From: Variovorax boronicumulans
Lineage (GTDB): Bacteria > Pseudomonadota > Gammaproteobacteria > Burkholderiales > Burkholderiaceae_C
Direction: 5' to 3'
Length of the DNA stretch: 64,000 nucleotides
Assembly: GCF_029892485.1 (NCBI RefSeq)
Contig: NZ_JARXVG010000001.1
Span: forward strand, 992,001-1,056,000
The notes beneath the pieces were generated by a model, which worked only from the letters and a program-made list of their open reading frames with translations, was not told the origin of the DNA and made no database searches. Made by a program: the position numbers and the translations under genes. This document shows, piece by piece, positions 18,545 through 28,902 of the stretch; the stretch's first letter is position 1; each line of letters opens with the position of its first letter.

Positions 18545-20020
18545 GTGAACCCCATTGTTCGCCGGCAGCTTGCCGGTCCCCTTCGCTATCGAAGAAGTAG
18601 CGCGCTGCTCAAGCGCGCCGCCGCACTCGGCAGCGCTCTGGTGCTGGCCGGATGTGCCAGTCTGTCGCCCGACGGCGGCACTGCCGACGTGCAGGCGCTG
18701 GTCGCGGGCAACCCGCTGATGGCGGGCAGCACCGCGCAGCGTGCGCCCGACGAAGCTTCGCAGAAGAGCGTCGACGCGCTGCTCGCCAAGCCGCTCGATG
18801 CCGAAGCCGCCGTGCGCATCGCCCTCCTCAACAGCCCACGCGTGCAGGACGCCTTCGCCACGCTGCAGCTGAGCGACGCCGACCGCGTGCAGGCCGCGAG
18901 CCTGCCGAACCCGGTGCTCTCGTTCAGCCGCCTCGCGCAAGGCCGCGAGCGCGAGTTCGAGCGGATGCTGAGCTTCAACGTGATCGGGCTCGTCACGCTG
19001 CCGTGGCAGGCCCGCTGGGCTGGCCAGCGGCATGAGGCCGCCAAGCTGCAGGCCGCGCAGAACGTGCTGCTGCTGGCCGCCGACACACGCCGCGCGTGGG
19101 TGCGCGCAGTGTCGGCGCAGCAGAGCGTGGCGTACCTGCGCGATGCGAAGGACGCGGCCGAAGCCGGCGCCGAGCTCGCGCACCGCATGGCCAAGGCCGG
19201 CAACTGGAGCACGCTGCAGCGCACGCGCGAACAGCTACTGCTGGCCGATGCCGCGGCGCAGCTCGCGCGCGCCGAGCAGATGGCCGTCGCCACGCGTGAG
19301 CAACTCAATCGATTGCTCGGCCTCGGCGGCGAGCGCACCAGCTACACGCTGCCCGATCGCCTGCCTCCTCTGCCGCAGTCCGCGCCCGACCTCGGCGACG
19401 TGCAGGCCCGCGCCCTGCGCGACCGGCTCGACGTGCGTTCGGCACAGGCGCAGAACACGGCGGTGGCCGATTCGCTCGGCCTCACGCGTGCCACGCATGT
19501 CATCAACGCCCTGGAGATCGGTGCCGTACGCAACACCACCTTCGCCAACGACGGCGAGCGTTCGCGTTCGACCAAGAGAGGCTTCGAACTCGACCTGCCG
19601 CTGCCGTTGTTCGACTGGGGCCAGGCACGCACCGGCCGCGCCGAGGCGCAGTACATGCAGTCGGCCGCCCGCGTGCGCGACGTGGGCGTGCTGGCCGCGA
19701 GCGAGGCGCGCGAAGCCTGGCAGGGCTGGAACACCGCCTATGCGCTGGCGCGCCGCTACCGCGACGAGGTGCTGCCGCTGCGCAAGAAGGTCAACGAGGA
19801 AATGGTGCTGCGCTACAACGGCATGCTCGCGAGCGTGTGGGAATTGCTCGGCGAAACCCGCGCGAGCATGCTCGTGGTGAACGCCGGCATGGAGGCTCAG
19901 CGCGACTTCTGGCTCGCCGACACCGACCTGCAACTCGTGCTCACCGGCAGTTCGCCCGGCGGCATGACGGCGCTGCAGACGACCACGGCCGGCGATGCAC
20001 CTGCGGCGGGAGGGCACTGA
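18545..20020 (+). CDS. TolC-family outer membrane lipoprotein
   Basis: 491 aa, GTG start with GGAG upstream at 18536-18539. A lipobox (LVLAGCASLSP, Cys about 37) marks an outer membrane lipoprotein like CusC/OprM. The repeated helical hairpins of the family are visible, such as AVRIALLNSPRVQDAFATLQ and the second repeat near ALRDRLDVRSAQAQN, ending LDLPLPLFDWGQART. The usual partners (RND pump and membrane fusion protein) are absent; the gene instead precedes the copper oxidase gene by one base. A role in copper tolerance is inferred from context. Confidence 0.88.
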   Translation: MNPIVRRQLAGPLRYRRSSALLKRAAALGSALVLAGCASLSPDGGTADVQALVAGNPLMAGSTAQRAPDEASQKSVDALLAKPLDAEAAVRIALLNSPRVQDAFATLQLSDADRVQAASLPNPVLSFSRLAQGREREFERMLSFNVIGLVTLPWQARWAGQRHEAAKLQAAQNVLLLAADTRRAWVRAVSAQQSVAYLRDAKDAAEAGAELAHRMAKAGNWSTLQRTREQLLLADAAAQLARAEQMAVATREQLNRLLGLGGERTSYTLPDRLPPLPQSAPDLGDVQARALRDRLDVRSAQAQNTAVADSLGLTRATHVINALEIGAVRNTTFANDGERSRSTKRGFELDLPLPLFDWGQARTGRAEAQYMQSAARVRDVGVLAASEAREAWQGWNTAYALARRYRDEVLPLRKKVNEEMVLRYNGMLASVWELLGETRASMLVVNAGMEAQRDFWLADTDLQLVLTGSSPGGMTALQTTTAGDAPAAGGH

Positions 20021-20021
20021 C

Positions 20022-21401
20022 ATGAACCGCCGCAATTTCTTCGCAGGCGCCGCCACGGCCGTGGCAGCCACCACCGTGAGCCGCGTCTCGATGGCCGCGC
20101 TGCCCGAACCGGTGACGCAAAGCTCCACCGCCACCGCGCCACCGCTCGCCCCGCCGAACGGCCGCCCCTACAACCCGGTCGTCACCCTCAACGGCTGGAC
20201 GCTCCCCTGGCGCATGAACGCCGGCGTCAAGGAATTCCACCTCGTCGCCGAACCCGTCGTGCGCGAGATGGCGCCCGGCTTCAAGGTCAACATGTGGGGC
20301 TACAACGGCCAGTCGCCCGGCCCCACCATCGAGGTGGTAGAGGGCGACCGCGTGCGCATCTACGTGACCAACAGGCTGCCCGAGCACACGACCGTGCACT
20401 GGCACGGCCAGCGCCTGCCCAACGGCATGGACGGCGTGGGCGGCATCACGCAGCCGCACATTCCGCCGGGCAAGACCTTCGTCTACGAGTTCACTGCGCG
20501 TCGGCCCGGCACCTTCATGTACCACCCGCATGCCGACGAGATGGTGCAGATGGCGATGGGGATGATGGGTTTCTGGGTCACGCACCCGAAAGAGAGCCAT
20601 CCGCTCATCGAACCGGTGCAGCGCGATTTCTGCTTCCTGCTCGGCAGCTTCGACGTGGAGCCCGGCAGCGCGACGCCCAAGGTCAACACCATGACCGACT
20701 TCAACATCTGGAGCTTCAACAGCCGCGTGTTCCCCGGCATCGACACGCTCAATGTGCGCAAGGGCGACCGGGTGCGCATCCGCGTGGGCAACCTCACGAT
20801 GACCAACCACCCGATCCACATCCACGGCCACGAGTTCGAGGTGACCGGCACCGACGGCGGCCCCGTGCCGCGCACCGCGCGCTGGCCCGAGGTGTCGGTG
20901 GACGTGGCGGTGGGCCAGATGCGGCAGATGGAATTCATCGCGGATGAAGAAGGCGACTGGTCGCTGCACTGCCACAAGGCGCATCACACGATGGGACCGA
21001 TGGGCCACGAGGTGCCGACCATGATCGGCGTGGACCACAAGGGCGTGGCCGAGAAGATCAAGAAGCTCGTGCCCGACTACATGGTGATGGGCGACAAGGG
21101 CATGGCCGACATGGGCGGAATGGAGATGCCCATCCCCGACAACACGATGCCCATGATGACTGGCGCCGGCCCGTTCGGCTCGGCCGAGATGGGTGGCATG
21201 TTCACGCTGCTGAAGGTACGGCGCGACCAGAAGCCGGGGGACTACAAGGACCCGGGCTGGTTCAAGCACCCGGCCGGCACGGTGGCGCACGAAGTGGCCG
21301 GCGCCGCCGTGCCGCCGGCCACGCGCGACGCACCATCGCCGGGCAACAGCAGCGACACCGACGCCACCGTGCGCAAGCCGTCGGGCACGCACAACCACTG
21401 A
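20022..21401 (+). CDS. Multicopper oxidase, copper-tolerance type
   Basis: 459 aa. A Tat signal (MNRRNFFAGAATAVAA) directs folded export. All four copper motifs are present: HWHGQRLPNG, YHPHADEM, NHPIHIHGHEF and HCHKAHHTMGPM, giving the type 2/3 cluster plus a type 1 site with Cys, two His and an axial Met. It probably oxidises Cu(I) in the periplasm. It is shorter than CopA (about 600 aa) and has a Met-rich stretch (MADMGGMEMPIPDNTMPMM in part) near residue 365-385, like copper-binding inserts in CueO and PcoA. Its start comes one base after the TolC-like stop. Confidence 0.93.
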   Translation: MNRRNFFAGAATAVAATTVSRVSMAALPEPVTQSSTATAPPLAPPNGRPYNPVVTLNGWTLPWRMNAGVKEFHLVAEPVVREMAPGFKVNMWGYNGQSPGPTIEVVEGDRVRIYVTNRLPEHTTVHWHGQRLPNGMDGVGGITQPHIPPGKTFVYEFTARRPGTFMYHPHADEMVQMAMGMMGFWVTHPKESHPLIEPVQRDFCFLLGSFDVEPGSATPKVNTMTDFNIWSFNSRVFPGIDTLNVRKGDRVRIRVGNLTMTNHPIHIHGHEFEVTGTDGGPVPRTARWPEVSVDVAVGQMRQMEFIADEEGDWSLHCHKAHHTMGPMGHEVPTMIGVDHKGVAEKIKKLVPDYMVMGDKGMADMGGMEMPIPDNTMPMMTGAGPFGSAEMGGMFTLLKVRRDQKPGDYKDPGWFKHPAGTVAHEVAGAAVPPATRDAPSPGNSSDTDATVRKPSGTHNH

Positions 21402-21432
21402 CCACATTCACTTTCATTTCGGAGTTCATCGC

Positions 21433-21948
21433 ATGAACAAGATCTTCAAGTCCATCGCACTTTGCATCGCGCTAGCCGCTGCAGCAACCGCATCGCAGGC
21501 CCATGAAAACCACACGCCGAAGCCGAAGGGCGCCACCACGCTCGCCCTCGAGCAAAAGCCTTGGGGCATCGAAGGCAAGGCGAGCGCCGTGCGCCGCACC
21601 ATCGACATCGCGATGGCCGACGACATGACCTTCACGCCTTCGGTGATCGAGGTGCGCGAGGGCGACACCATCCGCCTGCGCCTGAGGAACAAGGGCAAGG
21701 AGCTGCACGAGCTCGTGCTCGGCACCGAGTCCGAGATCGCGAACCACGCGGCCATGATGAAGAAATTCCCGGACATGGAACACGACGATCCGTGGATGGT
21801 GCATGTGCCCGCAGGCAAGAGCGGCGAGATGGTCTGGACCTTCAACCGCGCCGGCGACTTCGACTTCGCGTGCCTCGTGAAAGACCACTTCGAACTCGGC
21901 ATGGCCGGCTGCATCCGCGTGCTGGCCGTTTCGCCCCAAGAGTCCTGA
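21433..21948 (+). CDS. Cupredoxin-domain periplasmic protein
   Basis: 171 aa. A signal peptide ends near ASQA|HENH. The cupredoxin fold shows DDMTFTPSVIEVREGDTIR, the ligand His in ELHELVLG, and FACLVKDHFELGMAG with the Cys-His-Met loop of a type 1 copper site. It may pass electrons or copper to the oxidase encoded upstream. GGAG lies 9 bases before the start. The region before the domain (HENHTPKPKG) adds possible copper-binding His. Confidence 0.9.
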   Translation: MNKIFKSIALCIALAAAATASQAHENHTPKPKGATTLALEQKPWGIEGKASAVRRTIDIAMADDMTFTPSVIEVREGDTIRLRLRNKGKELHELVLGTESEIANHAAMMKKFPDMEHDDPWMVHVPAGKSGEMVWTFNRAGDFDFACLVKDHFELGMAGCIRVLAVSPQES

Positions 21949-21967
21949 TCGAACCAAGGAGATCACC

Positions 21968-22429
21968 ATGCAACGACGAATCCTCTTGAAGCGCGCCGCC
22001 CCGCTGCTGGCGCTCGCATCCACCCTGCCGCTCACCGCTTTCGCTGCGGCGCCAATGGTCGAGATATGGAAAGACCCGAACTGCGGCTGCTGTCAGGACT
22101 GGGTGAAGCACCTCAACAAGAACGGCTTTGCCACGAAGGTGCACGACGAAGGCAACACGGCCGCGCGCACCCGGTTCGGCGTGCCTGCCAAGCTGGGCTC
22201 GTGCCACACCGGCCTGATCGGCGGCTATGCCATCGAGGGTCATGTGCCCGCGCGCGAAGTGCAGCGCCTCTTGAAGGAAAAGCCCAAGGCCGTCGGCCTC
22301 GCGGTGCCCGGCATGCCGGTCGGCTCGCCGGGCATGGATGGCCCGGCCTACGGGGACCAGCGCGATCCGTACGACGTGCTGCTCGTGCTGGCCGATGGCA
22401 GCACGCGTGTCTATCAAAGCTATCGCTGA
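21968..22429 (+). CDS. DUF411-family (CopG-like) copper protein
   Basis: 153 aa. A Tat-like or Sec signal ends at AFAA. The thioredoxin-like DUF411 core has WKDPNCGCCQDWVKHL with the C-x-C-C motif, LGSCHTGLIGGYAIEGHVP and PGMPVGSPGMDG. Members such as CopG bind copper clusters and take part in periplasmic copper redox chemistry. AAGGAGA at 21956-21962 supports the start. It sits between the cupredoxin and CusF-like genes. Confidence 0.92.
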   Translation: MQRRILLKRAAPLLALASTLPLTAFAAAPMVEIWKDPNCGCCQDWVKHLNKNGFATKVHDEGNTAARTRFGVPAKLGSCHTGLIGGYAIEGHVPAREVQRLLKEKPKAVGLAVPGMPVGSPGMDGPAYGDQRDPYDVLLVLADGSTRVYQSYR

Positions 22430-22441
22430 AGGAACATGGCC

Positions 22442-22732
22442 ATGAAGAAACTCCTCACCGTCCTCTCCGCCGCCCTCCTCGCCGCGGCCGCCTTCGCGCA
22501 AGCTGCGCTGCCCGCCGTCGAAGGCGAGGTGCGCAAGATCGACACCGATGCGAAGAAGATCACCTTGAAGCACGGCGACATCCCGAACCTCGAGATGACC
22601 GGCATGACGATGGTCTTCCGCGTGAAAGACCCCGAGCTGCTCGGCAAGGTGAAGCCGGGCGACAAGGTGCGCTTCACGGCGGACAAGGTCGACGGCGCGC
22701 TCACGGTGCTGTCGATCGAGCCAGAGGGTTGA
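22442..22732 (+). CDS. CusF-like periplasmic copper-binding protein
   Basis: 96 aa. The signal peptide ends at FAQA. The OB-fold CusF domain shows GEVRKIDTDAKKITLKHG and TGMTMVFRV, keeping the His and both Met ligands. The Trp that caps Cu(I) in E. coli CusF (W-P-x-M-T-M) is Met here (MTGMTM). ATG 22442 fits AAGGA at 22429-22433 better than ATG 22436. It is the last gene of the copper operon and may shuttle Cu(I) to the oxidase or TolC-like factor, since no CusAB is encoded. Confidence 0.9.
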   Translation: MKKLLTVLSAALLAAAAFAQAALPAVEGEVRKIDTDAKKITLKHGDIPNLEMTGMTMVFRVKDPELLGKVKPGDKVRFTADKVDGALTVLSIEPEG

Positions 22733-22796: not shown

Positions 22797-23015
22797 ATGG
22801 GAAGTTCCGATCTGCAATTGGCTCTTTCTTCGCTGAGCGTGGCCGAGCGCATCGAACTCGCAGAGGAGCTGTGGGACAGCGTCGCTCGCGAGGCCGAATC
22901 ACAAGCGCTGACTGAGCGCGAACAGAGCGAAATCGCGCGGCGCCGTGCCGAGCATCGCGCAGATCCGCAAGCCGTCGTGCCCTGGAGTCAGGTCAAGACC
23001 TCGCTGAAGCTCTGA
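22797..23015 (+). CDS. Addiction-module antitoxin
   Basis: 72 aa of the short Glu-rich addiction module family that partners RelE/ParE toxins: ALSSLSVAERIELAEELWDS is its signature. The C-terminal half (ARRRAEHRADPQAVVPW) is the toxin-wrapping tail. GGGAG at 22786-22790 precedes the ATG. A possible minus 10 box TAGAAT lies at 22761-22766. The gene is followed 2 bases later by the toxin. These antitoxins usually repress their own operon. Confidence 0.85.
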   Translation: MGSSDLQLALSSLSVAERIELAEELWDSVAREAESQALTEREQSEIARRRAEHRADPQAVVPWSQVKTSLKL

Positions 23016-23017
23016 CC

Positions 23018-23308
23018 TTGCTCGACATCGTTTTTCGGGAGAGCGCCGCGCTCCAGCTTCAGGAGGCACAGGGCTGGTACGAATCACAGCGTGTGGGCCT
23101 CGGCGCCGAGTTCGCTCGCAGCCTGGAGGCGGTGGTGAATCGGATTGCGCGGCAACCGGAAGGTGCCCCACTGGTTTGGGAAGATGTTCGCCGGGCCCAC
23201 CTCAAGCGCTTTCCCTATGCCGTCTTCTTTGTCGTCGAGCCTGATCGCGTAGTGGTGCTCAGCTGCATGCACCATCGCCGGAATCCTGCCAACTGGCCGC
23301 AGTCCTGA
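23018..23308 (+). CDS. RelE/ParE-family toxin
   Basis: 96 aa beginning at TTG 23018. It shows the RelE/ParE fold: VFRESAALQLQEAQGWYESQ, EFARSLEAVVNRIARQPEGAP and the C-terminal KRFPYAVFFVVEPDRVVVL strands ending CMHHRRNP. The basic C-terminal strand Arg/His residues fit the active region. The family blocks translation or gyrase; ParE-like is the closer guess because of the YAVFFVVEPD pattern. TTG is weak and would keep toxin below antitoxin. It converges on the DadA-like gene with 18 bases between. Confidence 0.85.
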   Translation: MLDIVFRESAALQLQEAQGWYESQRVGLGAEFARSLEAVVNRIARQPEGAPLVWEDVRRAHLKRFPYAVFFVVEPDRVVVLSCMHHRRNPANWPQS

Positions 23309-24667: not shown

Positions 24668-25705
24668 ATGTCAGCCACGACTTCCACTTCTTCCTCTCCC
24701 TCCAACTCCGCCGGTGCCATCACCGACGTCGCCGGCATCGAAGTCGGCCATTTCTCCGACACCCGCCGCCCCACCGGCTGCACCGTCGTCATGGCGCGCG
24801 AGGGCGCCGTGGCCGGTGTCGATGTGCGCGGCGCCGCGCCCGGCACCCGCGAGACCGACCTGCTCTCGCCCGGCAACCTGGTGCAGCAGGTGCATGCGGT
24901 AATGCTCGCGGGCGGCAGCGCCTGGGGCCTCTCGGCGGCCGAGGGCGCGATGCGCTGGCTCGAGGAGCGCGGCATCGGCATGGACGTGCGCTTCGGCACC
25001 CTGCCCATCGTGCCCGCCGCGGTGCTGTTCGACCTGCCGATGGGCGATGCGCGCATCCGCCCCGATGCGGCATCCGGCTACGCGGCCTGCGATGCCGCAT
25101 CGAACGCCGTCCCCGCCGAGGGCAACGTGGGCGCCGGCAGCGGCGCGCTGGTGGGCAAGCTCTTCGGCGTGCACCGCGCGATGAAGGGCGGCATCGGCAC
25201 CGCGTCGGTCACTGTCGGTGGCGTCACCGTGGGTGCGCTGATCGCGGTCAATTCGCTGGGCGACGTGATCGACCACAACACCGCGCAGCCCGTGGCCGGT
25301 GCGCGCACCGAAGACGGCACCGCATTGCTCGACACCCGCCGCGCCCTGCTGCGAGGCGAGCTGCCCAAGCCACTGCTCGCGGGCACCAACACCACGCTGG
25401 GCGTGGTCGCCACCGACGCGGTGCTCACCAAGGTGCAGGCCAACCGGCTGGCCAACGTGGCGCACGACGGCCTCGCGCGCGCCATCAACCCGGTGCACAC
25501 GATGAGCGACGGCGACACGCTGTTCGCGCTGGCCACCGGCCGCGTGCCGCTCGAAGGCAATGCGCCGGGCATGACGGTGCTGGGCACGATGGCCGCGGAG
25601 GCCGTGGCCATTGCCACGCTGCGCGCCGTGCACGCGGCGCAATCGGTGACGGTGGGCGACCTGCACATCCCGTCCGCGACGGACTTCGCCGCAGCGCGCC
25701 CCTGA
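24668..25705 (+). CDS. P1-family (S58) N-terminal-nucleophile peptidase/amidase
   Basis: 345 aa self-processing hydrolase of the DmpA/NylC fold. The predicted autocleavage is between Asn241 and Thr242 in LLAGTNTTLGVVATDA, freeing Thr242 as the nucleophile; this matches the Asn/Thr site of nylon-oligomer hydrolase NylC rather than the Gly/Ser site of DmpA. Other family pieces are ITDVAGIEVGHFSD at the N-terminus, and GNVGAGSGALVGKLFG. It probably acts on small peptides or unusual amides in the cytoplasm; no signal peptide is seen. The TAXI gene follows after 28 bases. Confidence 0.88.
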   Translation: MSATTSTSSSPSNSAGAITDVAGIEVGHFSDTRRPTGCTVVMAREGAVAGVDVRGAAPGTRETDLLSPGNLVQQVHAVMLAGGSAWGLSAAEGAMRWLEERGIGMDVRFGTLPIVPAAVLFDLPMGDARIRPDAASGYAACDAASNAVPAEGNVGAGSGALVGKLFGVHRAMKGGIGTASVTVGGVTVGALIAVNSLGDVIDHNTAQPVAGARTEDGTALLDTRRALLRGELPKPLLAGTNTTLGVVATDAVLTKVQANRLANVAHDGLARAINPVHTMSDGDTLFALATGRVPLEGNAPGMTVLGTMAAEAVAIATLRAVHAAQSVTVGDLHIPSATDFAAARP

Positions 25706-25733: not shown

Positions 25734-27128
25734 ATGGCGTTCCCCCGAACCCTGAAGCTGATCCTGCTGTCGATCCGCGACCTGATCGCCTCGGCCGGCC
25801 CCATCATCTTTCTCGTGATCGGCCTGTTGATCGCGGCCTACTGGTATCTGCAGCCGCAACCGCCCAGGCACGTGACGCTGGCCACCGGCCCCACGGGCAG
25901 CGCCTACGCCGAGTTCGGCAAGCGCTATGCGGCTGCACTCAAGACCAACGGCATCACGGTCGAGCTCAAGCCCACCTCGGGCTCCTCGGAAAACCTGGAG
26001 CTGCTGCGCAAGGGCGGGGCCGACGTGGGCTTCGTGCGCGGAGGCAGCGCCGACCCGGTGGCCGACGAAGAGGCGGGACTCAGTTCGCTGGGCAGCCTGT
26101 TCTACGAGCCGATCTGGCTCTTCTACCGCGCCGACAGCGCGCTGAAGGTCGACAAGAAGACCGGCACGCTGACTTCGCTCACCCAGCTGCGCGGCCTGCG
26201 CGTGAACGTCGACATGCCGGGCAGCGGCCTCCCCGAGATCATGGAACGCCTCTTCAAGGCCAACCGGATCGGGCCCGACGATGTGCTGCTGTCGAACCTC
26301 GAACAGGCCGCCGCGGCCGAGGCGCTGCAGGCCGGGCTGCTCGATGCGATCGTGCTGTCTTCCGCACCGCAATCGCCGCAGGTGCAGCGGCTGCTGCGTG
26401 CGGGCGACATCAAGCTGATGGACTTCGGCCAGGCCGATGCGTACTCGCGGCGCTTTCCGTTTCTCTCGGCGGTGACGCTGCCACGCGGCGTGGTCGACCT
26501 GTCGAAAGACCTTCCGCCGTCGGACGTGTCGCTGCTCGCGGCCACCACCTCGCTCTTGTCGCGCGAACAAACCCACCCTGCCCTGCGCCAGCTGTTCGCG
26601 CAATCGGCGCAGACGGTGCACAGCGACGCGGGCTGGTTCAACCGGGCGCGCGACTTTCCGAACACGCGCACCAGCGAACTGCCGGTGAGCCCCGAGGGCG
26701 ACCGCGCGATCAACGGCACGCCGCCGTTCTGGCAGCGCTACCTGCCCTTCTGGGCCAGCAACCTGGTCGAGCGCATGTGGCTGGTGCTGGGCGGTTTGCT
26801 GGTGCTGATGCTGCCGCTGAGCCGCGTGATCCCGCCGCTCTACCAGTTCCGTGTGCGGCGGCGCGTGTTCCGCTGGTATGCGCGGCTGCGCGACATCGAG
26901 GGCAAGGTCGATGCGAAGCAAGGCGAACGCGACACGCTGCTCAAGGAGCTCGATGATCTCGATCGCGTGGTCAACAAGGTGGCGGTGCCGCTGTCGTATG
27001 CCGATGAGCTCTACGCGCTGCGCAACAACATCTATGCGGTGAGGAAGCGCGTGCTGGCCGGATCGGCGAAGGGCGAAGCCGCTGCTACGCAGGCGCCTGT
27101 GACGCCGAAGCCCGCGGAATCCGCCTGA
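25734..27128 (+). CDS. TAXI-family solute-binding protein with two membrane anchors
   Basis: 464 aa. The periplasmic ligand domain (about residues 45-335) is a TAXI TRAP binding domain: HVTLATGPTGSAYAEFGKRY, TSGSSENLELLRKGGADVGF. Unusually it is held by two helices, at 18-40 and 347-369, and continues with a basic, helical cytoplasmic tail (370-464: RRRVFRWYARLRDIEGKVDA onward) likely to form a coiled coil. No TRAP permease gene is near. It may be a receptor rather than part of an uptake system. AAAGGA at 25721-25726 supports ATG 25734; the next gene begins 4 bases after the stop. Confidence 0.85.
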   Translation: MAFPRTLKLILLSIRDLIASAGPIIFLVIGLLIAAYWYLQPQPPRHVTLATGPTGSAYAEFGKRYAAALKTNGITVELKPTSGSSENLELLRKGGADVGFVRGGSADPVADEEAGLSSLGSLFYEPIWLFYRADSALKVDKKTGTLTSLTQLRGLRVNVDMPGSGLPEIMERLFKANRIGPDDVLLSNLEQAAAAEALQAGLLDAIVLSSAPQSPQVQRLLRAGDIKLMDFGQADAYSRRFPFLSAVTLPRGVVDLSKDLPPSDVSLLAATTSLLSREQTHPALRQLFAQSAQTVHSDAGWFNRARDFPNTRTSELPVSPEGDRAINGTPPFWQRYLPFWASNLVERMWLVLGGLLVLMLPLSRVIPPLYQFRVRRRVFRWYARLRDIEGKVDAKQGERDTLLKELDDLDRVVNKVAVPLSYADELYALRNNIYAVRKRVLAGSAKGEAAATQAPVTPKPAESA

Positions 27129-27132
27129 CGAT

Positions 27133-28902
27133 TTGGTCTTGCAAACGCTGATCGATTTCGCCGAGCCACGCGGCGATGGCGCGACGCGGTTGCGCGTGGC
27201 TTTCGGTGCGCCATCGCGCGTGCTCGTTGCGCGCTCCGCCGAAGAAGTGAAGCCGGTGCTGGAGACCGTCGAAGCGCTGTCGCGCGAGGGCCGCTGGTGC
27301 GTGGGCTATCTGCGCTACGAGGCAGCCGCGGCTTTCGACCCGGCCTTCGCGGTGCATGCAGGCGACGGGCCGCTGGCTTGGTTCGGCGTGCATGACGCGG
27401 CCGTGCCGTGGCCCGACGAGGCGGCCAGCCCCGTGCCTGCTGTCGATTGGCAAGCCGGCCTGTCACGCGCTGGCTTCGACCGCAACATGCAGGCCATTCA
27501 TCGCGCCATCGCGGACGGCGAGCTGTACCAGCTCAACTACACCGCGCCGCTGCGGGCCGAATTCCGGGGCAATGCGCGCGACTGGTTCATGGCCCTGCGA
27601 GCAGCGCAGCCCAACGGCTATGCCGCCTTCATCGACACCGGCGACGAGCAGGTGCTGTCGGTATCGCCCGAGCTCTTCTTCGACTGGCAAGGCGACCGGA
27701 TCCTTGCGCGCCCCATGAAAGGCACCGCCCCGCGCGGCGCGACCGCCGCCGAGGACGAGGCGATGGCGCTGCGCCTTCGCACCGTGCCCAAGGAGCGCGC
27801 CGAGAACGTGATGATCGTGGACCTGATCCGCAACGATCTCTCGCGCATCGCGCAGCCCTTCTCGGTGCGCGTGCCGTGGCTCTTTCACACCGAGGCGCTG
27901 CCCACTGTTTGGCAGATGACCTCCGATGTCGAGGCGAAGGTGCGCGACGGCGTCTCGCTGGTGGATGTGTTCTCGGCCCTCTTCCCCTGCGGCTCGATCA
28001 CGGGCGCGCCCAAGGTCAGCGCGATGCGCATGATCCGCGACCTGGAGCCCGAGCCGCGCGGCGTGTACTGCGGCGCTGTCGGCGTGGTGCGTCCGGGCGG
28101 GCATGCGACCTTCAACGTGCCGATCCGCACCGTCACGCTGCGTGGCACCCAGGCGCGCTGCGGCATCGGCAGCGGCATCACGGCCGATGCGCGAGCCGAT
28201 GCGGAGTGGGATGAATGGAGGCACAAGCGGGCCTTTCTGGAGCGAGGGCCCGCGCCTGTATCGTCTGCTGCCATGAGTTCCTTCGAATTGCTCGAGACCT
28301 TTGCGCTGGTCGATGGCGCGCTGCGCGATACGCCCGCGCACCTGGCGCGCATGCAGAACGCGGCTTCGCACTTCGGCTATCCATGGAACGAGGCGCTTGT
28401 GGCGACACACCTTCATCGCCTGGCCAAAGCGCATTCCACAGGTAAGTGGCGCGTTCGCCTCCTGCTCGACGCACAAGGACAGCCGCACGCAGAAGCCTTC
28501 GCCATGGAGGCACCACTGTCGCGTGTGCAACTGCAATTGGCCTCCTGCGCCTTCGACGAGGCCGACAGCGAGTTCTCGCGCTTCAAGACCACGCGCCGCG
28601 CGCACTACGAGGCCTTCGCGCCCACCACGCCGGGCGTGTTCGACACGCTGCTGTGGAACCGCCATGGCGAGATCACCGAATGCACGCGCGGCAACATCGC
28701 CCTGCTGCTGGACGGCCGCTGGGTCACGCCGCCGCTGCGCTGCGGGTTGCTTGACGGCATCGGCCGCGCCAGGCGCCTGCACAACGGCCAGCTTGCCGAA
28801 ACCGTCGTGCGGGTAGACGATCTGCCCCGCGTGCAGGCTTTCGCATTCGTCAACAGCCTGCGCGGCTGGATCGATGCCGATCTCCTGCTTCCGCAGAAAT
28901 AG
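27133..28902 (+). CDS. pabBC: Aminodeoxychorismate synthase component I fused to aminodeoxychorismate lyase
   Basis: 589 aa, TTG start (no in-frame ATG for over 100 codons). The PabB domain (about 1-370) has ELYQLNYTAPLRAEF, LARPMKGTAPRG, ERAENVMIVDLIRNDLSRI and PCGSITGAPKVSAMRMI, with the catalytic Glu and Lys of chorismate enzymes. The PLP-dependent PabC domain (about 380-589) has ETFALVDGALRDTPAHL, SRFKTTRRAHYEAF with the PLP lysine, and TECTRGNIALLLDGRW. Together they convert chorismate and ammonia to 4-aminobenzoate for folate. The glutaminase PabA is not in the window. This fusion is common in Burkholderiales. Confidence 0.93.
   Translation: MVLQTLIDFAEPRGDGATRLRVAFGAPSRVLVARSAEEVKPVLETVEALSREGRWCVGYLRYEAAAAFDPAFAVHAGDGPLAWFGVHDAAVPWPDEAASPVPAVDWQAGLSRAGFDRNMQAIHRAIADGELYQLNYTAPLRAEFRGNARDWFMALRAAQPNGYAAFIDTGDEQVLSVSPELFFDWQGDRILARPMKGTAPRGATAAEDEAMALRLRTVPKERAENVMIVDLIRNDLSRIAQPFSVRVPWLFHTEALPTVWQMTSDVEAKVRDGVSLVDVFSALFPCGSITGAPKVSAMRMIRDLEPEPRGVYCGAVGVVRPGGHATFNVPIRTVTLRGTQARCGIGSGITADARADAEWDEWRHKRAFLERGPAPVSSAAMSSFELLETFALVDGALRDTPAHLARMQNAASHFGYPWNEALVATHLHRLAKAHSTGKWRVRLLLDAQGQPHAEAFAMEAPLSRVQLQLASCAFDEADSEFSRFKTTRRAHYEAFAPTTPGVFDTLLWNRHGEITECTRGNIALLLDGRWVTPPLRCGLLDGIGRARRLHNGQLAETVVRVDDLPRVQAFAFVNSLRGWIDADLLLPQK

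Follow-up and report, generated by a model that had tools for sequence, protein, structure and literature searches.

A two-anchor TAXI-domain protein of Variovorax boronicumulans with a predicted cytoplasmic helical bundle, a candidate membrane receptor

The closest described systems are the TAXI solute-binding proteins, which the available text of published accounts describes as polypeptides of 300-350 amino acids that are secreted or lipid-anchored and mostly accompanied by a fused permease (PMC11574862, PMC12344293, PMC5812351). A large share of them are lipoproteins (PMC11574862, citing Roden 2023, in the text available), so the statement in a preliminary description of our locus that TRAP binding proteins are normally soluble needs qualifying for the many lipoproteins of the TAXI type. 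For VcGluP, the same partial text reports that the Y45A and Q93A substitutions weakened glutamate binding by 213-fold and 990-fold (PMC11574862). Two unusual arrangements have been described: the membrane-anchored TAXI system of Proteus mirabilis is presented as a reconstituted alpha-ketoglutarate transporter (Roden et al. 2023, as cited in PMC11574862), and BP0403 of Bordetella pertussis, a TAXI lipoprotein of elongated build, is coupled to gltS, the joint function of the two being, according to the text available from its authors, still to be tested (PMC12344293). The family PF16868 also appears, in the accessible part of another source, among those listed as having sensor uses too (PMC9602780).

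We analyzed a 64,000-nucleotide stretch of DNA from V. boronicumulans (the window; contig NZ_JARXVG010000001.1, positions 992,001 to 1,056,000), and coordinates below are positions in this stretch. The gene at 25734..27128 (+ strand) is an open reading frame of 464 amino acids plus stop. Pfam searches revealed a match to PF16868 (NMT1_3/TAXI) of 71.1 bits over residues 49-288, with a cut-off of 27; the NCBIfam model TIGR02122 (TRAP_TAXI) scored 82.7, slightly below its cut-off of 84.35, and a PHROG 6856 match was confined to TAXI residues 44-216. The Kyte-Doolittle profile has peaks at residues 17-35 (2.56) and 348-366 (2.05). In the AlphaFold model of the full protein (a monomer, from an alignment of 35 sequences including the query; pLDDT 78.2, pTM 0.59), helices were predicted at residues 5-39, 332-393, 399-415, and 420-447, the second of them unbroken over 62 residues and passing from membrane to cytoplasm with no interruption. 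When residues 330-446 were folded alone, helices were obtained at 331-393, 399-415, and 420-443 (pLDDT 83.2).

Judged by its sequence and model, the protein is a TAXI domain set between two membrane helices, of which the second runs into an antiparallel cytoplasmic three-helix bundle. All of its parts lie on the + strand. The N-terminal membrane helix, residues 5-39 in the model (25746..25850), contains the first hydropathy peak and is followed by a PxPP linker at residues 41-44 (25854..25865), with proline at 41, 43, and 44 in 45/47, 43/47, and 43/47, respectively, of a diverse set comprising the query and 46 distant copies. The periplasmic TAXI (Venus-flytrap) domain, assigned from PF16868 and structure comparison, covers residues 45-330 (25866..26723). 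It leads into the continuous helix 332-393 (26727..26912), delimited by the model and by conservation, which comprises the second membrane helix (347-369) and its cytoplasmic extension. The cytoplasmic three-helix bundle predicted from the model and the alignments spans residues 373-441 (26850..27056) and carries the conserved end motif VPLSYADELYALRNNI..VRKR.

The topology was assigned from hydropathy, charge, and the AlphaFold model. Both hydrophobic segments, each with a Kyte-Doolittle value of at least 1.8, were present in 47/47 sequences of the diverse set. The net charge following the second helix was positive in all 55 aligned sequences (mean +4.1, minimum +1) and that of the N-terminus averaged +2.1 in these sequences, which is consistent with an N-in/C-in orientation and a TAXI domain outside. 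By eye, the only A-x-A in the N-terminus (residues 19-21) lies ahead of the hydrophobic core, so N-terminal cleavage appears unlikely. The anchoring of the TAXI domain by an N-terminal and a second helix, as put forward in the preliminary description, is therefore borne out by hydropathy, charge, AlphaFold, and PF16868, and its placement of a membrane helix at residues 347-369 was right within a few residues, given the peak at 348-366, the model helix 332-393, and the hydrophobic segment in 47/47 copies. Its proposal of about 95 coiled-coil-like cytoplasmic residues held in part: the tail is predicted to be helical, with 4-3 spacing, and cytoplasmic, but the final ~20 residues are variable among the query and 80 close relatives, which leaves a conserved tail closer to 70 residues than to 95.

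Comparison of the full model with solved structures placed TAXI proteins at the top, with Z scores of 25.8 for 4ddd of E. chaffeensis (rmsd 3.4, 275 residues aligned), 25.2 for 9ibo (VcGluP), 24.9 for both 8s4j (VcGluP) and 9ibp (VCA0144), and 23.8 and 23.6 for the Thermus entries 8u79 and 1us4 (TtGluBP). These six top-ranked TAXI entries represent four proteins and aligned over 271-277 residues at 3.1-3.6 Å; the first non-TAXI row was SsuA, with a Z score of 16.0. A sequence search of the PDB (E up to 1) returned seven distinct sequences, all of them TAXI entries or "immunogenic protein"/GluR0-core entries of the TAXI type. VcGluP/VC0430, TtGluBP (1us4), and 4ddd have in common with residues 39-331 of the window protein the fold and PF16868, and their pocket positions appear to correspond.

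Two positions of the putative binding pocket were followed through the alignments. Tyr58 (25905..25907, + strand), which we take by motif to be the equivalent of VcGluP Tyr45, is a tyrosine in 38/47 diverse and 78/81 close sequences. Position 102 (26037..26039, + strand), presumably that of VcGluP Gln93, an assignment also made by motif, is arginine in 81/81 close sequences and glutamine in 45/47 diverse ones; the other two of the 47 have Glu (L149) and Arg, the latter being the window protein itself. Since the close set consists of the best 80 of 128 relatives, the 81/81 figure holds for near relatives only. In the PDB sequence-search alignments to 4ddd and 9ibp, R102 stood opposite a glutamine of each. 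The retention of the pocket residues suggests that the wider family could bind a glutamate-like ligand, and the pocket of the window clade looks altered. The ligand of the Comamonadaceae clade has probably been changed through this Gln-to-Arg substitution, as far as the alignments can indicate.

The three bundle helices contain 17 core positions with 4-3 spacing that are hydrophobic in 64-100% of the 47 diverse sequences. In a permutation test of helical periodicity, p values of 0.011, 0.003, and 0.14 were obtained for the three helices in order, with convincing periodicity in the first and second helices but not in the last. No recognizable cytoplasmic output domain was found in the tail by Pfam, PDB sequence, Foldseek, or structure comparison searches. 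Pfam gave no match with the query tail and, for 41 tails, nothing better than E 0.0025 among the families listed; Foldseek gave nothing at E 0.001 or better. As for candidate homologues that we rejected, the structure comparison rows (from VIA) were generic three-helix bundles with a best Z of 11.6, below the level that the tool regards as meaningful for bundles, and the PDB sequence matches to 3jqh (a lectin neck, E 3.2e-9) and to GCN4-like coils were read as composition. In 17 searched genomes, the tail was confined to two-anchor TAXI proteins save for four weak matches, one in a 546-codon frame of genome G044 (E 3.6e-4) and three at E 0.07-0.55. Histidine kinases and chemoreceptors with solute-binding sensors resemble the window protein in that the sensor lies between two helices and the second enters cytoplasmic helices, but the two-anchor TAXI protein gave no Pfam match to a kinase, chemoreceptor, GGDEF, or HAMP domain.

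The described TAXI systems differ from this arrangement in several ways. VcGluP-type proteins have about 300-350 residues in the text available, compared with 464 residues, a second helix, and a bundle in the window protein, and their genes are mostly paired with a fused permease, for which the window genome has no match above the cut-off. The P. mirabilis system, like ours, has a membrane-anchored TAXI binding protein (Roden, via PMC11574862) but is a transporter by description, a comparison that draws on its title and citations alone. BP0403 likewise lacks a TRAP permease, has an extra helical part, and exceeds 450 residues (PMC12344293, available in part); however, it is a predicted lipoprotein with its extra domains N-terminal to TAXI and a gene that overlaps gltS, and no GltS match occurs in the window genome. 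A C-terminal membrane helix followed by a cytoplasmic bundle was not described for any TAXI protein in the literature searched, which for the most part excluded subscription papers.

A scan of named genomes yielded 128 relatives, of which the best 80 were kept (66-97% identity); these are mostly from Variovorax, with others from Rhodoferax, Xenophilus, Ottowia, and Pseudorhodoferax. Among 299 evenly drawn Pseudomonadota genomes, a model of the second helix and tail (A1, 23 sequences, 9 of them from MAGs) matched in 40, and a broader model, for which 41 diverse sequences were used, gave 53 copies distributed over 43 genomes, 22/181 genera, and 11 families; any PF16868 match at E 1e-5 was present in 177/299. 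Since model A1, like model A5, was built from the second helix and tail, both features occur in every hit by construction. Less dependent checks on the architecture are the N-terminal helix, the reading-frame length, and a full-length tblastn search of plasmids, in which the whole protein matched 18 of 72,556 records and the best place reached at least query residue 440 in 18/18. The distant set, which combines six plasmid copies with 40 of 46 A1 copies from outside the window, was read full-length, and the homologue in each locus was chosen by a full-length profile (218-684 bits). Some plasmid copies (L175, L176, L178) are on plasmids of Pseudomonas aeruginosa, Burkholderia vietnamiensis, and Roseovarius. 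Family f4 (L140-L142, L151-L153) has up to three two-anchor TAXI copies per genome (G268, G238, G175), with diverged tails. When 61 genomes of family f36 were sampled separately, the gene was found in 16, with one copy a fragment, so it is accessory there.

To compare conservation along the protein, we used the mean frequency of the commonest residue. For the query and 80 close relatives, the values were 0.95 for the second membrane helix, 0.88 for the tail motif, 0.84 for the TAXI domain, 0.81 for the N-terminal segment, and 0.71 for the linker. For the 47 diverse sequences, the second membrane helix (0.604), the juxtamembrane (0.578) and membrane-proximal (0.561) segments, and the tail motif (0.535) were followed by the TAXI domain (0.495), the N-terminal helix (0.397), and the linker between bundle helices (0.35). 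On these alignments, the second helix and the tail motif are conserved at least as well as the TAXI domain. Two of the residues invariant in 47/47 diverse sequences, Y382 and Y427, are in the tail, and the others are G52, G83, N87, G104, P126, and P309, of which G83 and N87 belong to the putative binding site. The tails of the distant copies are 19-57% identical to that of the query. The topology, the predicted fold, and the degree to which the second helix and the tail motif are conserved all support the description of the protein as built like a membrane receptor.

We then considered the permeases. As the preliminary description had noted, there is no permease nearby: none was identified in the 12 ORFs searched against protein families (18.5-29.8 kb), and no match to DctM, TctA, or GltS was found in the window. 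In the window genome as a whole, the only PF16868 protein above the cut-off is the window protein itself. No fused TAXI permease (TIGR02123) exceeded the cut-off there, the best scoring 96.8 against 320.65, and no PF03616 (GltS) match was found at E 1e-30. DctM matched 13 segments of the same genome, belonging to about 11 proteins, and TctA gave 6 matches, so a shared permease is possible in this organism. Two of the DctM segments lie in one unusually long frame of 880 codons (G000:C18:33404-35287), which is absent among the TIGR02123 matches.

Across the 299 genomes, with the four best first-look candidates scored per genome, the fused TAXI permease was above the cut-off in 92, comprising 9/43 carriers of the two-anchor gene and 83/256 non-carriers (Fisher p 0.15), and we rejected it as an obligate partner, given its presence in only 9/43 carriers. 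GltS (E 1e-30), found in 52/299 genomes, was likewise rejected as the partner, being present in 6/43 carriers and 46/256 others. DctM and TctA were counted in the 40 A1 carriers, G067, G091, and G166 (added by the broader model) falling outside this count. DctM was matched in 24/40 and unmatched in 16/40, with just a weak match (37.3 bits) for G062, and TctA was matched in 15/40 and unmatched in 25/40. DctM, TctA, and GltS were all unmatched in the same 16/40 carriers, every one of them from family f36. These 16 genomes are 1.7-3.1 Mb in size and 90-99% complete; apart from two single-contig assemblies, they are split into 20 to 390 contigs, and single permease losses could therefore be gaps. 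Constant co-occurrence with a permease gene elsewhere, which the preliminary description had named as the finding that would count against its reading, was not seen in these data: the window genome has neither a fused TAXI permease above the cut-off nor GltS, and DctM was unmatched in 16/40 carriers.

Analysis of the gene neighborhood revealed a recurrent neighbor in the Comamonadaceae clade. An S58/P1-family peptidase gene (24668..25705, + strand) ends 28 nt upstream of the TAXI start; the closest solved relative of its product is 9cxr, a nylon-6,6 (poly(hexamethylene adipamide)) hydrolase (E 2.4e-78). In 60/78 testable close loci, the S58/P1 gene was the immediate upstream neighbor and had the same orientation; in 71/78, it lay anywhere upstream. 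A gene for an FAD-dependent oxidoreductase (DAO) was upstream in 33/67 testable close loci. The PabB/aminotransferase IV gene (27133..28902, + strand; TTG start as listed), 4 nt downstream of the TAXI gene, was adjacent to it in 20/77, so a functional link with the TAXI gene is improbable. Since the S58 linkage outlasts the PabB and DAO linkages and decays more slowly than its surroundings, it is probably functional in the Comamonadaceae. Outside this clade, S58 was in the fetched stretch of only 2/46 loci (L135, L137), both of one family. Two further groups of genes lie upstream in the window, a copper-type cluster at 18545-22732 (+ strand; outer membrane efflux protein, multicopper oxidase, cupredoxin-like, DUF411, and CusF-like products) and, adjoining it at 22797-23308 (+ strand), a 72-amino-acid ORF followed by a ParE-like toxin (PF05016, E 6.8e-9), a possible toxin-antitoxin pair.

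Around the 46 distant loci, 22 neighbor clusters met the listing rule, and 12 of them spanned at least two families; because the reading frames in these loci were picked by length, some may be spurious. The clusters that span families read mostly as generic, with ABC ATPases, short-chain-dehydrogenase-like products (six loci), and LysR-like regulators that vary in side, strand, and distance. Among these clusters, no transporter neighbor recurring across families was seen. In L147 and L176, which belong to two families, a DUF3443 gene, annotated as such in L176, lies 3' of the TAXI gene and shares its strand. No TRAP, TTT, or GltS permease was present in the annotated plasmid stretches around TAXI copies; upstream of the L175 copy, at a distance of about 7 kb, lies an SLC13 permease gene, and two MFS genes occur within 8 kb of another plasmid copy.

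We consider it an even chance that the protein is a ligand-gated two-pass inner-membrane receptor that uses the TAXI domain as its sensor and has a partner encoded elsewhere. The usual partner transporters appear to be missing from some carriers, and the protein may therefore act as a receptor instead of serving an uptake pump. In such a receptor, the Venus flytrap would close on a small carboxylate or amino-acid-like ligand, closure would shift the second membrane helix and repack the cytoplasmic bundle, and the repacked bundle would bind or release a cytoplasmic or membrane partner encoded elsewhere. The TAXI domain is attached closely to both helices, by the PxPP after the first and by a strongly conserved stretch before the second. 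In the Comamonadaceae clade, the ligand may be tied to the S58/P1 peptidase encoded just upstream. The case for the receptor, which we regard as evenly balanced, draws on the predicted TAXI fold, the kept pocket residues, the conservation of the second helix and tail in the alignments, and the carriers without the permeases tested across genomes (fused TAXI permease, DctM, TctA, and GltS). Against it stand the tail, for which the searches gave no output domain, no partner, and a likeness to generic bundles only, and the N-terminal helix (0.397) and bundle linker (0.35), which in the 47 diverse sequences are less conserved than the TAXI domain. TAXI-GltS, another unusually built TAXI arrangement, has been proposed to serve transport (PMC12344293, in the text available), the DctM and TctA proteins of the window genome could be shared, and plasmid copies have SLC13 or MFS neighbors.

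The main rival to the receptor is a doubly anchored binding protein that would pass its ligand to a permease of some type other than fused TAXI, the bundle providing docking or dimerization for that permease; we regard this as unlikely though far from negligible. It accords with the available descriptions of TAXI proteins as transporter parts, one of them proposed with GltS (PMC11574862, PMC12344293), and with the published membrane-anchored TAXI system (Roden 2023, as cited in PMC11574862); the strong conservation of the second helix suggests a protein contact within the membrane, the neighboring S58 peptidase could process an imported amide, and DctM and TctA were matched in 24/40 and 15/40 carriers. 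However, 16 carriers have no DctM, TctA, or GltS match, no transporter neighbor recurs across families, the fused TAXI permease is not enriched in carriers (9/43 versus 83/256, Fisher p 0.15), and delivery alone would not require a conserved cytoplasmic domain. The S58 linkage itself fits uptake and breakdown of a substrate equally as well as sensing.

That linkage also bears on a ligand-controlled membrane scaffold or regulator, the bundle of which would hold or control a cytoplasmic enzyme, in the Comamonadaceae the S58/P1 peptidase. The position of S58 directly upstream in 60/78 and anywhere upstream in 71/78 close loci speaks for such a scaffold when set beside PabB (20/77) and DAO (33/67), but S58 is near the gene in only 2/46 loci outside the clade, where the tail motif is conserved too, and we find this explanation improbable. 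The patchy distribution (16/61 f36 genomes, 43/299 overall) would fit an orphan binding protein, accessory or in decay, whose anchoring helices arose by chance and whose tail has no specific function; yet the heptads, the invariant residues, and both helices persist in copies whose tails are just 19-57% identical to that of the query, and this explanation is disfavored and, in our estimate, highly improbable.

By default annotation, TAXI proteins are transporter parts. We tentatively propose, at somewhat less than an even chance, that the receptor reading extends to a widespread and undescribed class of one-component receptors in Pseudomonadota, in which a TAXI domain would act through a conserved helix on a bundle that recruits a partner, and in which the ligand was switched in Variovorax by the Gln-to-Arg change. 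This would be a branch that in some genomes is without the known partner transporters and that has a conserved cytoplasmic domain; if true, many "TRAP transporter solute-binding subunit" annotations would be wrong in kind, and the protein would offer a compact system for studying how a Venus-flytrap domain moves one membrane helix. For the ligand, both the Gln/Arg switch and the peptidase linkage open concrete routes.
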